Shown here: in pieces, positions 25,624 through 32,596 of the stretch
Layout of the letters: every line of letters starts with the position of its first letter
Position numbering within the stretch: the first letter of the stretch is position 1
Origin: Flavobacteriales bacterium
GTDB taxonomy: Bacteria; Bacteroidota; Bacteroidia; Palsa-965
DNA: 36,273 nucleotides
NCBI GenBank assembly: GCA_002737665.1
Contig: NSIF01000017.1
Location: forward strand, 1 to 36,273
Direction: 5' to 3'
The notes under the pieces: model-generated
Seen by the model: only the letters and a program-made list of their open reading frames with translations
Databases searched by the model: none
Told to the model about the DNA's origin: nothing
Program-made: the position numbers and the translations under genes

Positions 25624-25722
25624 TTGCTTATTGTGGATTTGTTATGCTGAATTTTTTTAATGTAATATTCCAACTAATTTGATTTGAAACAGGTAAAAAA
25701 TACTTACTTTCACATTCCAAAT

Positions 25723-26931
25723 ATGCGATTTTATTTATCTCTTTATTTTGTATTAATTCTTTCGGCAAACGCTTTTTCGCAATCGGCTGCGCGAGCAAAA
25801 CTCAACATTGAAAAGACCGATGCTGATATTAAAGTGGGTGCTGAAAGGACTGCAGTTTATTTGCCAATGCTTATTGGTAAAAATATAGCCGTTGTAGCAA
25901 ACCAGACTTCGCTTATCAATTCAACTTCCTTGATTGATAGTTTGATTAGTTTAAAAATTAAAATAAAAAAAATATTTTGTCCCGAGCACGGTTTTCGTGG
26001 TGTTGCAGAAAACGGCGAAGAAGTTAGCAATGCTATTGATTTAAAAACTGGATTGCCAATTATTTCCTTGTATGGAGATCATTTAAAACCAACGACGAAA
26101 GATTTAAGTGGTATCGATGTTGTGGTTTATGACATTCAAGATGTTGGTGTGCGTTGTTACACTTATGTAACAACTATGACTAATGTAATGGAAGCCTGTG
26201 CAGAGCAGAAAAAAACTTTTTTGATTTTAGATCGACCAAATCCTAATGGGTATTATATAGACGGCCCAATTTTAGAAAACACATACAAATCTTTTGTAGG
26301 CATTCACCCTGTTCCTTTAGTTTATGGAATGACTATTGCAGAATATGCGCTAATGGTAAATGGGGAGAAATGGCTTGCGAATGGTATTCATTGTGATTTA
26401 AAAACAGTATCCTGCGAAAATTATGTTCACTCCGATTGGTATCAATTGCCTGTTGCACCATCTCCTAATTTGCCGAATATGGCAGCTGTATATTTGTATC
26501 CTTCACTTGTACTTTTTGAAGGAACAGTAATGAGTGTTGGTCGTGGAACGGATCTTCCTTTCCAGTTAGTAGGTCATCCTAAATTAAATAATGCTGTTTT
26601 AAAATTCACACCAACACCTCACCCTGGCGCAAAAAAACCGTTGTATGAAAACCAAGTCTGCCTTGGACATAATTTGCATGATTTTGCATTGCTTTATATT
26701 CGCGACTACAAAGGCCTTTACTTGTATTGGATTTTATCTTCATACAACGATATGCCCGAAAAGGATATTTATTTTAATGACTTTTTGGAAAAGCTTGCGG
26801 GAACAAAAACTCTTCGACAACAGATTATAGAAAAGAAATCAGAAGAACAAATAAAGGCAACTTGGCGACAAGGAATTCTAAAATTTAAAATCATTCGAAA
26901 GAATTATTTGCTTTACGATGATTTCGAATAA
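25723..26931 (+). CDS. Exo-beta-N-acetylmuramidase NamZ-like protein (DUF1343)
   Basis: This predicted exported enzyme is of the DUF1343/NamZ family (CAZy GH171), which removes terminal N-acetylmuramic acid from peptidoglycan fragments. The 402-aa product begins with a signal peptide (MRFYLSLYFVLILSANAFSQ). Conserved family segments are IKKIFCPEHGFRGVAENGEE, VVYDIQDVGVRCYTYVTTM, DRPNPNGYYIDGPILE and LFEGTVMSVGRGTDLPFQ. The track begins at TTG 25684; ATG 25723 is chosen because it places the signal peptide at the true N-terminus. It is divergent from the permease and followed by the copper-protein gene. Cell-wall recycling or use of scavenged muropeptides are both possible. Confidence 0.9.
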   Translation: MRFYLSLYFVLILSANAFSQSAARAKLNIEKTDADIKVGAERTAVYLPMLIGKNIAVVANQTSLINSTSLIDSLISLKIKIKKIFCPEHGFRGVAENGEEVSNAIDLKTGLPIISLYGDHLKPTTKDLSGIDVVVYDIQDVGVRCYTYVTTMTNVMEACAEQKKTFLILDRPNPNGYYIDGPILENTYKSFVGIHPVPLVYGMTIAEYALMVNGEKWLANGIHCDLKTVSCENYVHSDWYQLPVAPSPNLPNMAAVYLYPSLVLFEGTVMSVGRGTDLPFQLVGHPKLNNAVLKFTPTPHPGAKKPLYENQVCLGHNLHDFALLYIRDYKGLYLYWILSSYNDMPEKDIYFNDFLEKLAGTKTLRQQIIEKKSEEQIKATWRQGILKFKIIRKNYLLYDDFE

Positions 26932-27008: not shown

Positions 27009-28583
27009 ATGAAAAAGTTTTTTCTAATTTTAGTAGTCTTTGTTTATTCGTTTTTACTTAAAGCGCAAACAGGACCATACTGGGCAACAGATGTTGCACC
27101 GATTCTTTATCAGAATTGTACAAGTTGCCACAACGCAAATGGCATCGCACCGTTTTCTTTAATGACTTATGCTGATGCCTTTCCAAATGCAGGAGCAATG
27201 GCTTCAGAAGTTAGTAATCGGACAATGCCGCCATGGCCACCCGACACTTCTTATGTTCGTTTTTGTAATGAACGAGTTTTATCTCAAGCTGAAATTCAAA
27301 CTATTGTTGATTGGGATGCGAATGGGGCTCAGCAGGGAAATTTAGCTAACGCTCCTGTTCCACCCACTTATACTGGTTCAGCGCTATTGGTAAACCCTGA
27401 TCTTGTAGCACAAATTCCACTTTATACTGTCAATACGGCTACTGATTTATACCGATGTTTTGTTGTCTTGAGCGGAGTCCCAACAAATGAATTCATCTCC
27501 AAAATTGAATTTATTCCAGGCAATCGTTCAATTGTTCACCACATACTTCTTTACCAAGATCAATCTAATACTTGTGTTAATCTTGATAACGCTTCACCTG
27601 GTCCAGGTTATACAAACTTCGGTGGTGTGGGTTCTAATACTGCAAAGTTTGTTGCGGCTTGGGTGCCAGGCCAAGAAGTTTATGTGTTGCCTGCTAATAT
27701 GGGAATTCAATTACTCGCTAATGCTAAACTAATCTTTCAAATTCATTATCCAGGAGGCACTTTTGGACAAATTGATAGTACTCAAGTTCGTTTAACGTTT
27801 GCAAGTGGGCTTGTGCGAAATGTTTCAATTGATCCAACAATTAATCATTCCCAATCGCTTACCAACGGTCCCTTATTTATTCCAGCAGATACCGTAAAAA
27901 CATTTTATGCGCAGGAATATATAGGTTATAATGTAAGTGTCATAAGTGTTGCTCCACACATGCATTTAATTGGTCACAACATTACAAATTATGCTGTAAC
28001 ACCTAATAGTGATACAGTTCCATTGATTCAGATTAATAATTGGGATTTTCACTGGCAAGGATTTTATAATTTCCGACAGCCAATTCACATACCATTGGGT
28101 AGCACCATTTATGCTCATGCAGAATATGACAATTCAGTAAATAATCCACACAATCCAAATTCTCCCCCGCAGCACGTATTCTTAGGTGAATCAACTAACG
28201 ATGAAATGTTTCTTGTGTATTATGCTTATTTGCTTTATCAGTTTGGTGATGAAAATATAATTATTGATTCTACGCTGATGGGAATGCAAGATCATACATT
28301 CCCTGGATTGGTCATTTGCCCGCAGTTGTATGCACCGTTTCCTTCACCAGCGTTGAATAACGAAAATATAAATATTGAATTTTATTTACCGAATAAGGTA
28401 AAAGTGAAAATCGAAATTGTGGATGTCAATGGCAGAACTGTTCTTATTCCCGTACAAGATATTGAAACCTCTGCCGGTTATGGTTCTCATAGATTAAATA
28501 CAAACGGATTAGCAAAAGGAACATATTTCGTTCGACTTTCTGCTGACGGTAGTGTGAAAACAAAACCAATAGTAATTCAGTAA
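27009..28583 (+). CDS. Secreted cytochrome c / copper type II monooxygenase-like protein with T9SS tail
   Basis: This 524-aa protein has a signal peptide (MKKFFLILVVFVYSFLLKAQ). A short cytochrome-like domain carries one haem c site, CTSCH at 37-41, followed by a PPWPPD segment. The rest resembles the peptidylglycine/dopamine monooxygenase two-copper fold. Candidate ligands for one copper are H177/H178 (VHHILLY) and H246 (QIHYPGG). For the other they are H317 and H319 (APHMHLIGHN) and M400 (NDEMFLVYYAY). This spacing fits the known ligand order. The C-terminal 80 residues look like a type-A T9SS sorting domain (GRTVLIPVQDIETSAGY, NGLAKGTYFVRL). Substrate unknown. It is followed by a strong terminator. 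Confidence 0.85.
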   Translation: MKKFFLILVVFVYSFLLKAQTGPYWATDVAPILYQNCTSCHNANGIAPFSLMTYADAFPNAGAMASEVSNRTMPPWPPDTSYVRFCNERVLSQAEIQTIVDWDANGAQQGNLANAPVPPTYTGSALLVNPDLVAQIPLYTVNTATDLYRCFVVLSGVPTNEFISKIEFIPGNRSIVHHILLYQDQSNTCVNLDNASPGPGYTNFGGVGSNTAKFVAAWVPGQEVYVLPANMGIQLLANAKLIFQIHYPGGTFGQIDSTQVRLTFASGLVRNVSIDPTINHSQSLTNGPLFIPADTVKTFYAQEYIGYNVSVISVAPHMHLIGHNITNYAVTPNSDTVPLIQINNWDFHWQGFYNFRQPIHIPLGSTIYAHAEYDNSVNNPHNPNSPPQHVFLGESTNDEMFLVYYAYLLYQFGDENIIIDSTLMGMQDHTFPGLVICPQLYAPFPSPALNNENINIEFYLPNKVKVKIEIVDVNGRTVLIPVQDIETSAGYGSHRLNTNGLAKGTYFVRLSADGSVKTKPIVIQ

Positions 28584-30601: not shown

Positions 30602-30991
30602 CTACTTCGCCTTTAATACAACGCATTTAAATGTTAGCGTTACGGGTGAATTCAGCGCATTTGACTTCAAGAGCACAGTTCTTTCCTGTCGTCCGATTGT
30701 AGTTTTACTATCAAATGTTACTCGAATTGTTTCTTTTTGACTTTTTTTAATAGGACTTTTTGGGTAATCAACGGTTGTGCATTTGCAACTCACATCTGCT
30801 TGCTGAATAATTAAAGGCTCGTCTCCTGTATTTGTAAACATAAAATCATGAAATGTAATTTCACCTTGGTGAAGGAATCCAAAATTAAATTTCAATTCCT
30901 CCAAATGCATCTCTGGCGAAATTTTTTCGCATGGTGACTGGCGAAATGCGAACGTAACAAATGCAAGAATTAAAACAGTTAATTGCTTCAT
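30602..30991 (-). CDS. DUF1573 family exported protein (fourth, divergent copy)
   Basis: This 129-aa exported protein has a weak signal sequence (MKQLTVLILAFVTFAFRQSP). It consists of one Ig-like DUF1573 domain with MHLEELKFNFGFLHQGEITF, FMFTNTGDEPLIIQQADVSC, then CKCTT and DYPKSPIKKSQKETIRVTFD. The usual CGC pair is CKC here. Unlike its three upstream relatives it lacks a Pro/Gly-rich tail and is separated from them by a terminator, with its own -7 box. The function of the family is unknown; a structural or binding role in the periplasm is usual speculation. Confidence 0.85.
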   Translation of the reverse strand: MKQLTVLILAFVTFAFRQSPCEKISPEMHLEELKFNFGFLHQGEITFHDFMFTNTGDEPLIIQQADVSCKCTTVDYPKSPIKKSQKETIRVTFDSKTTIGRQERTVLLKSNALNSPVTLTFKCVVLKAK

Positions 30992-31020
30992 ACGTTGTAT
31001 CTAAATTATTTCGTATTCAA

Positions 31021-31028
31021 CAAATGTA
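31021..31028 (-). promoter_or_regulatory. Candidate -7 box for the fourth DUF1573 gene
   Basis: The minus strand reads TACATTTG, a perfect TAnnTTTG, ending 29 bp before the ATG at 30991. No TTG is found at the expected -33 spacing. It lies downstream of the terminator of the DUF1573 trio. Confidence 0.5.
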
Positions 31029-31060
31029 TGTTTTTAGTTATGATTTTTTTGATTAAACAT

Positions 31061-31089
31061 AAAAACGCGAACAGTATGTTCGCGTTTTT
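31061..31089 (-). terminator. Rho-independent terminator of the DUF1573 trio
   Basis: AAAAACGCGAAC (31061-31072) pairs perfectly with GTTCGCGTTTTT (31078-31089) around a 5-nt loop. On the minus strand it ends in TTTTT, 20 bp after the stop of the third DUF1573 gene. Confidence 0.9.
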
Positions 31090-31108
31090 AATCGAGTTTT
31101 AACCAAAA

Positions 31109-31531
31109 TTAATTTCCGCTTGTGGCCGGTGTGCCAGCGGGAATTACAGAACCTTTAATTTTCACTTCCACTATACTGTTTGACGCATTTGATGTAACAG
31201 TAATTTTTTTATCAAACATACCAATACGAATACTGGTATCGTATTTTACTTTAAAATTTGCACTTGAACCAGGGGCAATTGGATTCTTCGGCCAACTTTC
31301 TGGAAACGTTGTGCAACCGCAGGCTCCTTTTATACTAGCAATAGTAAGTGGAGTTTTTCCAGTGTTTTTGAACGAAAATGTGCGTATAGCTTCACTGCCT
31401 TGTGTAATATTTCCGAAATCAATAACTTCTGATTGAAACGTAATTTCTGGTGCATTGATATCTGAATTTATTTGTGCAGATAAAAATGGAACAGAAAATA
31501 ACACTATCAATATGGAAGCAATAAGTTTCAT
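31109..31531 (-). CDS. DUF1573 family exported protein (third copy)
   Basis: This 140-aa protein has a signal peptide (MKLIASILIVLFSVPFLSAQ) and one DUF1573 domain. Visible motifs are EVIDFGNITQGSEAIRTFSF, KNTGKTPLTIASIKGACGC and a PKNPIAPGSSANFKVKYDT strand, ending KIKGSVIPAGTPATSGN. The CGC motif is present. It lies 17 bp after the second copy and before the terminator, so it ends a three-gene operon. Function unknown. The plus-strand ORF 31122-31436 is a shadow. Confidence 0.88.
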   Translation of the reverse strand: MKLIASILIVLFSVPFLSAQINSDINAPEITFQSEVIDFGNITQGSEAIRTFSFKNTGKTPLTIASIKGACGCTTFPESWPKNPIAPGSSANFKVKYDTSIRIGMFDKKITVTSNASNSIVEVKIKGSVIPAGTPATSGN

Positions 31532-31548
31532 TTACGTTCTTGACTAAA

Positions 31549-32049
31549 TTAATTATTCACCGGTGCTCCTCCATTTGCAGGGACTGACCCTGGCCCTGGA
31601 AAGGGTGTTTCAGAAATAGGTGCAGAAACCGTGCCATGAATTCGAATTACCGCAGGGGCTTCCTTTCCCTGAAAAGTTATTGTGACTTGTTTGTCAAAAG
31701 GCCCTAGGCGATTTGTGTCGTAACGAACTTTGATACCCACAGTTTGCCCAGGTTTTATAGGTTCTTTTGAGTATTCAGGTACAGTACAGCCACATGAACC
31801 ATGCGCTTCAGTAATTACAAGCATTTCTTTACTTGTATTTGTCAGTTTGAACTCGCAAATAGGTTCCCCACCTTTAAGGATGGTACCATAGTCGTTGCTC
31901 GTCTTGTTAAACTTGTAGCCTAAATCTACAATATCAACTTTAGCTGTTTGCGTAGGATTTGACTTAACAACTGGTTTTGAAGTGCTTGCTTGAGAAAAGC
32001 CATAGCTAAAGCTAAGACAACATATAGAGATTGTAACAATCTTTTTCAT
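31549..32049 (-). CDS. DUF1573 family exported protein (second copy)
   Basis: This 166-aa protein has a signal peptide (MKKIVTISICCLSFSYGFSQ). The DUF1573 domain reads YKFNKTSNDYGTILKGGEPI, EFKLTNTSKEMLVITEAHGS, CGCTVPEYSKEPIKPG, and ends VIRIHGTVSAPISE. The C-terminal tail is Pro/Gly-rich (TPFPGPGSVPANGGAPVNN). It lies 22 bp after the first copy. It is closest to the first copy in the CGCTVPxYxKEPIKP segment, which suggests local duplication. Function unknown. Confidence 0.88.
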   Translation of the reverse strand: MKKIVTISICCLSFSYGFSQASTSKPVVKSNPTQTAKVDIVDLGYKFNKTSNDYGTILKGGEPICEFKLTNTSKEMLVITEAHGSCGCTVPEYSKEPIKPGQTVGIKVRYDTNRLGPFDKQVTITFQGKEAPAVIRIHGTVSAPISETPFPGPGSVPANGGAPVNN

Positions 32050-32071
32050 ATTGAAAAAGGATTTAAATGAG

Positions 32072-32596
32072 TTAATTCTTTGGTTTTGTGGTCTCAGGTA
32101 ATGTAGTTGGCATCACTTGTGGAGCAGGTGTAGTAGATATTGTTGCACCACCATTTTGCCCTGGAGTTTCTGCAGGAGTTGGATTTGCAGGAGCCGCTTC
32201 AACTGTTCCTTTAATATGTAACACTATTGACTTGTCGGTGTCGTAAGTTAAAGTAACTGTTTTATCTTGGATACCCATTTTACCAGTTGAGTTAAAGGTA
32301 ACTTTAATTGTTCCACTTCCTTTTGGCTTAATTGGTTCTTTAGGATAATCAGGTACGGTACAACCGCAAGATCCAACAGCATTATTAATAATTAATGGCT
32401 CTTTTCCTGAGTTTTTAAATTTAAATTCATGGGTAGCGGTCTCGCCTTGTTTGATGTTTCCAAAGCTATATTCTAGCGCATCAAAAGTCATAACTGGACC
32501 ATTTTTTGTTTCCAATCCTGAGGTTACAGGTGCTTGAGCATTGGCCTGAGTCAAAGATCCCAAGATCATTAATGGAAGAAATAGTAATTTTTTCAT
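32072..32596 (-). CDS. DUF1573 family exported protein (first copy)
   Basis: This 174-aa protein has a signal peptide (MKKLLFLPLMILGSLTQANA). Its DUF1573 domain reads YSFGNIKQGETATHEFKFKN, KEPLIINNAVGSCGCTVPDY and PKEPIKPKGSGTIKVTFNST. A long Pro/Thr/Ala-rich tail follows (AAPANPTPAETPGQNGG onward). It is first in a tandem trio that probably forms one operon, divergent from valS across a 132-bp spacer. Function of the family is unknown. The low-complexity tail could be a linker or surface-exposed segment. Confidence 0.88.
   Translation of the reverse strand: MKKLLFLPLMILGSLTQANAQAPVTSGLETKNGPVMTFDALEYSFGNIKQGETATHEFKFKNSGKEPLIINNAVGSCGCTVPDYPKEPIKPKGSGTIKVTFNSTGKMGIQDKTVTLTYDTDKSIVLHIKGTVEAAPANPTPAETPGQNGGATISTTPAPQVMPTTLPETTKPKN

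Follow-up and report, generated by a model that had tools for sequence, protein, structure and literature searches.

Can a copper hydroxylase of the kind known from animals carry its own electron donor? In animals PHM and DBH serve peptide-hormone maturation and noradrenaline synthesis, and both are textbook ascorbate enzymes. The window considered here, a stretch of 36,273 nucleotides from a Flavobacteriales bacterium, raises the question through an open reading frame on its forward strand (27009-28583, 524 aa), the exact coordinates of which were reproduced in our analysis. A sequence-only reading had placed in this one protein a CTSCH motif, the six copper ligands known from PHM and a type IX (T9SS) sorting domain, and all of these were found (Table 1).

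Table 1. Features of the haem-copper gene, with positions in the window
Feature	Position	Strand	Basis or remark
Whole gene, with signal peptide, domain resembling cytochrome c, di-copper core of PHM/DBH type and T9SS type A tail	27009..28583	+	524 aa
Hydrophobic Sec signal peptide (predicted), residues 1 to about 20	27009..27068	+	Inferred from sequence: MKKFFLILVVFVYSFLLKAQ
Cytochrome c-like domain, about residues 24-120	27078..27368	+	Invariant CXXCH and MPPW; cytochrome c Pfam matches in some relatives
Putative haem c attachment site CTSCH, residues 37-41	27117..27131	+	57/57 sequences having the region
MPPW, residues 73-76	27225..27236	+	M, P and P in 59/59
Cu2_monooxygen N-terminal (CuH) domain, residues 139-247	27423..27749	+	PF01082, below cut-off
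Predicted CuH ligands H177-H178 (PHM H107, H108)	27537..27542	+	59/59; PHM alignment
Q244 (PHM Q170)	27738..27740	+	50/59; PHM alignment
Predicted CuH ligand H246 (PHM H172)	27744..27746	+	59/59; PHM alignment
Cu2_monoox_C (CuM) domain, residues 309-407	27933..28229	+	PF03712, above cut-off
Predicted CuM ligands H317-M-H319 (PHM H242, H244)	27957..27965	+	Both His 59/59; PHM alignment
Q350 (PHM Q272)	28056..28058	+	59/59; PHM alignment
Signature N375-x3-N379-x2-N382-P383-x2-P386-P387	28131..28169	+	Invariant in every sequence having the region
Predicted CuM ligand M400 in DEM (PHM M314)	28206..28208	+	58/58 sequences having the region
T9SS type A sorting domain, residues 444-524	28338..28580	+	Pfam and NCBIfam

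The copper core

The case for a PHM/DBH-type two-copper oxygenase core in this protein is strong. In Pfam the Cu2_monoox_C model scored 32.9 bits against a cut-off of 23 (E 5.4e-8), and Cu2_monooxygen fell one bit short with 29.0 bits against a cut-off of 30 (E 1.3e-6). A search of the PDB with the single sequence gave no match, and a profile was needed to reach PHM and DBH. A profile of 59 sequences matched DBH (4zel) best, at 1.3e-10, and PHM at 1.4e-8, with the HH, H and HxH motifs in register. Taken together, the Pfam and profile matches extend the sequence homology over both copper domains; M400 is equated with PHM M314 through its Pfam domain and motif, the PDB alignment stopping short of that residue. 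The protein has in common with PHM (1phm, 1opm, 1sdw) the two-domain fold, with HH and H at CuH and HxH and M at CuM, and the copper core of DBH is alike.

An AlphaFold2 model of residues 20-430, built on an alignment of nine rows, reached moderate confidence (pLDDT 72.6, pTM 0.73), and the best 31 PDB matches that Foldseek returned for it were all PHM or DBH (E 6e-13 to 5e-11), in line with the two-copper oxygenase that had been proposed. The top TM-scores were to chain A of DBH 4zel and to two citrate-bound copper-site mutants of PHM, 6ala and 5wja (chain D). Both H108A-citrate PHM and 4zel chain A have been described as closed forms (PMC6123673). Coming from a single model of moderate confidence, the closed-form likeness of our protein is only a hint.

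In PHM the carboxylate of the substrate is held by R240, N316 and Y318. In our protein A315 stands in place of R240, L402 in place of N316 and Y404 at Y318. Positions 315 and 402 are variable among the 59 aligned sequences, Arg is no common residue at 315, and the equivalent of Y318 is kept in only 39 of them. Because the anchors R240 and N316 have been replaced, peptide amidation is unlikely, and so, among the peptides that had been named as possible substrates, is one with a C-terminal glycine. The equivalents of Q170 and Q272, which in PHM belong to a water network needed for the binding of the peptide substrate (PMC6123673), are shared. Between the His and Met ligands of CuM, and outside the PHM alignment, lies the NxxxNxxNPxxPP signature, possibly a substrate- or metal-site feature that is particular to the bacterial family.

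The haem domain and its spacing to the copper site

In this protein the N-terminal domain has diverged too far for Pfam to recognise it (Haem_bd, E 0.011, under the cut-off), and among the relatives Cytochrome_CBB3 is matched in 7/59 and Cytochrom_C in 2/59. A model of the isolated domain shows three helices at low confidence (pLDDT 48). The main evidence that it binds haem is an invariant CXXCH and a Met at a near-constant separation: from the first Cys to this Met there are 36 residues in nearly all of 98 proteins. These are the marks of a class I cytochrome c, with C37, C40, H41 and M73 invariant, and M73 is the likely second axial ligand of the haem. Two cytochrome c assembly proteins (PF01578) are encoded in the same genome.

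The conservation was assessed in an alignment of the protein with 58 relatives, the majority belonging to the same class and others to Planctomycetota and Verrucomicrobiota. Counting the sequences in which a residue is present, 24 columns never vary among residues 1-430. The ten haem and copper positions, named before the count was made, all belong to this set (C37, C40, H41, M73, H177, H178, H246, H317, H319 and M400); the chance of this under random placement is 3.7e-14, a figure that overstates independence given the kinship of the sequences. We also looked for homologues lacking the histidines, which had been named as a case against the earlier reading, and found none, the copper histidines being invariant in 59/59; the haem c site, proposed from the sequence of this one gene, likewise holds in the relatives, together with a likely axial Met.

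The distance between the two parts is almost fixed as well. In the 98 proteins the first haem Cys precedes the HH motif by 141.4 residues with an SD of 1.3, and the distance from HH to HxH has an SD of 6.6. Since a loose linker would have been possible, this near-constancy suggests that the haem is packed rigidly against the CuH domain. Such packing would fit the delivery of electrons to CuH, but it is not proof of it.

Distribution of the family

The fusion had been taken, by implication, for a rarity, and this proved wrong. Relatives occur in 193 of the 395 sampled genomes of the source class (Bacteroidia), about half, and in 58 of 149 sampled genomes of Planctomycetota, the phylum of L012. 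These counts were obtained with queries that contain the haem domain. As an unbiased check, 297 Bacteroidota genomes were searched with the copper model Cu2_monoox_C alone, which matched in 26 of them; every intact protein found in this way has CXXCH or CX4CH, and the Met of MPP or MPL, upstream of HH. The haem-copper fusion is real, widespread and common in several bacterial phyla; three phyla share both the haem motif and the distance that separates it from CuH.

The proteins of Planctomycetota and Verrucomicrobiota (L095, L012-L014) have the same cytochrome, copper core and spacing as the Bacteroidota protein, but they lack the T9SS tail, and some have EF-hands. Some of them also have a redoxin, which is fused in L095 and in two others is the product of a downstream gene that overlaps (L013:9512-10024 and L014:9437-9952); Pfam finds a fused redoxin in L134 too. 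It is a possible thiol-linked source of electrons. Within the sample, members with a T9SS tail are confined to Bacteroidota, yet they do not all fall in a single part of the tree.

A distant set (L111, L116, L117, L121, L123-L127, L130, L131 and L138) mostly has CX4CH, and the nine of its members that were placed in the tree form one fully supported group. Ten of these Bacteroidota loci (L116, L117, L123-L127, L130, L131 and L138) make up a separate group of PHM-like paralogues, in which the unusual haem motif CX4CH, present in most, is followed by SHH, an HY or HF motif, HxH and DEM. A single Bacteroidia genome holds four haem-copper paralogues in tandem (L072:7212-13813). Nonomuraea gerenzanensis encodes a stand-alone PHM-like protein (L143:1566-2928) that keeps every copper ligand but lacks the haem domain, which shows that the copper core can occur without haem; the gene table of the collection has no gene entered at that place.

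Export and gene neighbourhood

The T9SS tail of the earlier reading was borne out by Por_Secre_tail (PF18962, residues 444-523, 43 bits against a cut-off of 27, E 5.6e-11) and by TIGR04183 of NCBIfam (1.4e-11). Moreover, the T9SS machinery is represented in the same genome by SprA (SprA_N, 2.9e-167).

On the same strand and 77 bases upstream lies a gene for a NamZ-like exo-beta-N-acetylmuramidase (window 25684-26931, +), which adjoins the haem-copper gene in L066 and L070 too. Four DUF1573 genes in a row (window 30602-32596, -) are found at the same place in L066, L069 and L070. The synteny with the NamZ, FtsX, aminotransferase and DUF1573 genes is confined to the genus and looks like housekeeping order, which is why we derive no substrate from the neighbours. 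Beyond the genus, the neighbour analysis gave no conserved partner gene that points to a donor or a substrate.

Proposed mechanism and alternatives

We consider it fairly probable that the protein is an exported, self-reducing di-copper hydroxylase in which haem c, instead of ascorbate, feeds CuH. It would cross the inner membrane via Sec, receive its covalent haem c from the Ccm machinery in the periplasm together with two coppers, and be released by the type IX system, either onto the cell surface or into the medium. The haem domain (His41/Met73) would accept single electrons from a donor and pass them to CuH (H177, H178 and H246), from where they would reach CuM (H317, H319 and M400). There O2 would be activated and a C-H bond of the substrate hydroxylated, as in PHM and DBH; the reaction would take place outside the outer membrane and without ascorbate. 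The architecture behind this scheme is well supported, and the loading with haem and copper, the path of the electrons and the hydroxylation are inferred. PHM itself is driven by ascorbate and has neither a haem domain nor a T9SS tail; DBH, which also uses ascorbate as reductant, has a DOMON domain and no haem c.

Judged from the sequences, a haem in place of soluble ascorbate, as the earlier reading had suggested, is plausible. It is supported indirectly by the near-fixed spacing between haem and CuH, by the haem motif in all intact Bacteroidota proteins with Cu2_monoox_C and by the redoxin fusions. A precedent is offered by the LPMOs, for which the c-type domain CjX183 was shown to reduce bacterial enzymes in place of ascorbate (PMC8981238). 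This X183 domain of Cellvibrio Cbp2D is a class I c-type haem domain on an exported multidomain protein and reduces a copper monooxygenase as ascorbate does; its LPMO partner, however, is mono-copper and of another fold, and X183 was assayed as a separate protein rather than in the same chain (PMC8981238). The pair may therefore be seen as a two-protein analogue of the first step proposed here, from haem to copper.

The same di-copper monooxygenase could also receive its electrons at CuH from a small diffusible reductant, with the haem domain serving as a docking site or relay for a further cytochrome, as a peroxide-limiting electron sink, or as a sensor of redox state or O2. This we hold to be unlikely, even though PHM and DBH run on ascorbate and the Nonomuraea protein does without a haem domain, for a motif and a spacing to CuH that are kept across three phyla speak against it. 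Rather improbable, too, is the use of the PHM fold and its metals for something other than hydroxylation, such as copper capture, peroxidase-like chemistry or inorganic oxidation, in which electrons might run from copper to haem. The neighbours give no clue to a substrate and A315 and L402 replace the PHM anchors, as this reading would have it, but both copper sites are retained along with counterparts of Q170 and Q272, and storage would have no need of these.

That the protein is a true bacterial peptidylglycine alpha-hydroxylating enzyme, performing the first step of peptide amidation, is very improbable. PHM is indeed among the closest solved relatives; DBH, however, outscores it in the profile search, Y318 is kept in part of the family only, and no PAL-like gene turned up in those ORFs of the window that were searched against Pfam. 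We rejected this candidate on its residues, R240 and N316 being missing. Finally, one could take CTSCH for a chance motif that binds no haem, given the sub-threshold Pfam score of this protein, but CXXCH and Met are invariant in 57-59 sequences, some of which do score as cytochrome c, and the idea is barely credible.

Significance

The family is widespread and, it seems, unstudied. In an inventory of copper proteins from 2020, PHM and DBM are entered under eukaryotes alone (PMC7435645), and in the full-text literature, which leaves most subscription journals outside and so does not prove absence, we found no description of a haem-copper fusion or of a bacterial PHM. We give an even chance to the broader proposition that PHM/DBH-type di-copper hydroxylases form a large family in bacteria, supplied with electrons via a built-in haem c, in some members via a redoxin, rather than from ascorbate, with a T9SS-exported Bacteroidota branch that acts outside the cells and has a substrate different from peptidylglycine. 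How electrons cross between the two coppers of PHM and DBH is still debated, and a natural enzyme with the donor in the same chain would allow every electron step to be followed through the colour of its own haem. For Bacteroidota and Planctomycetota, such a family would add a widespread extracellular oxidation chemistry.
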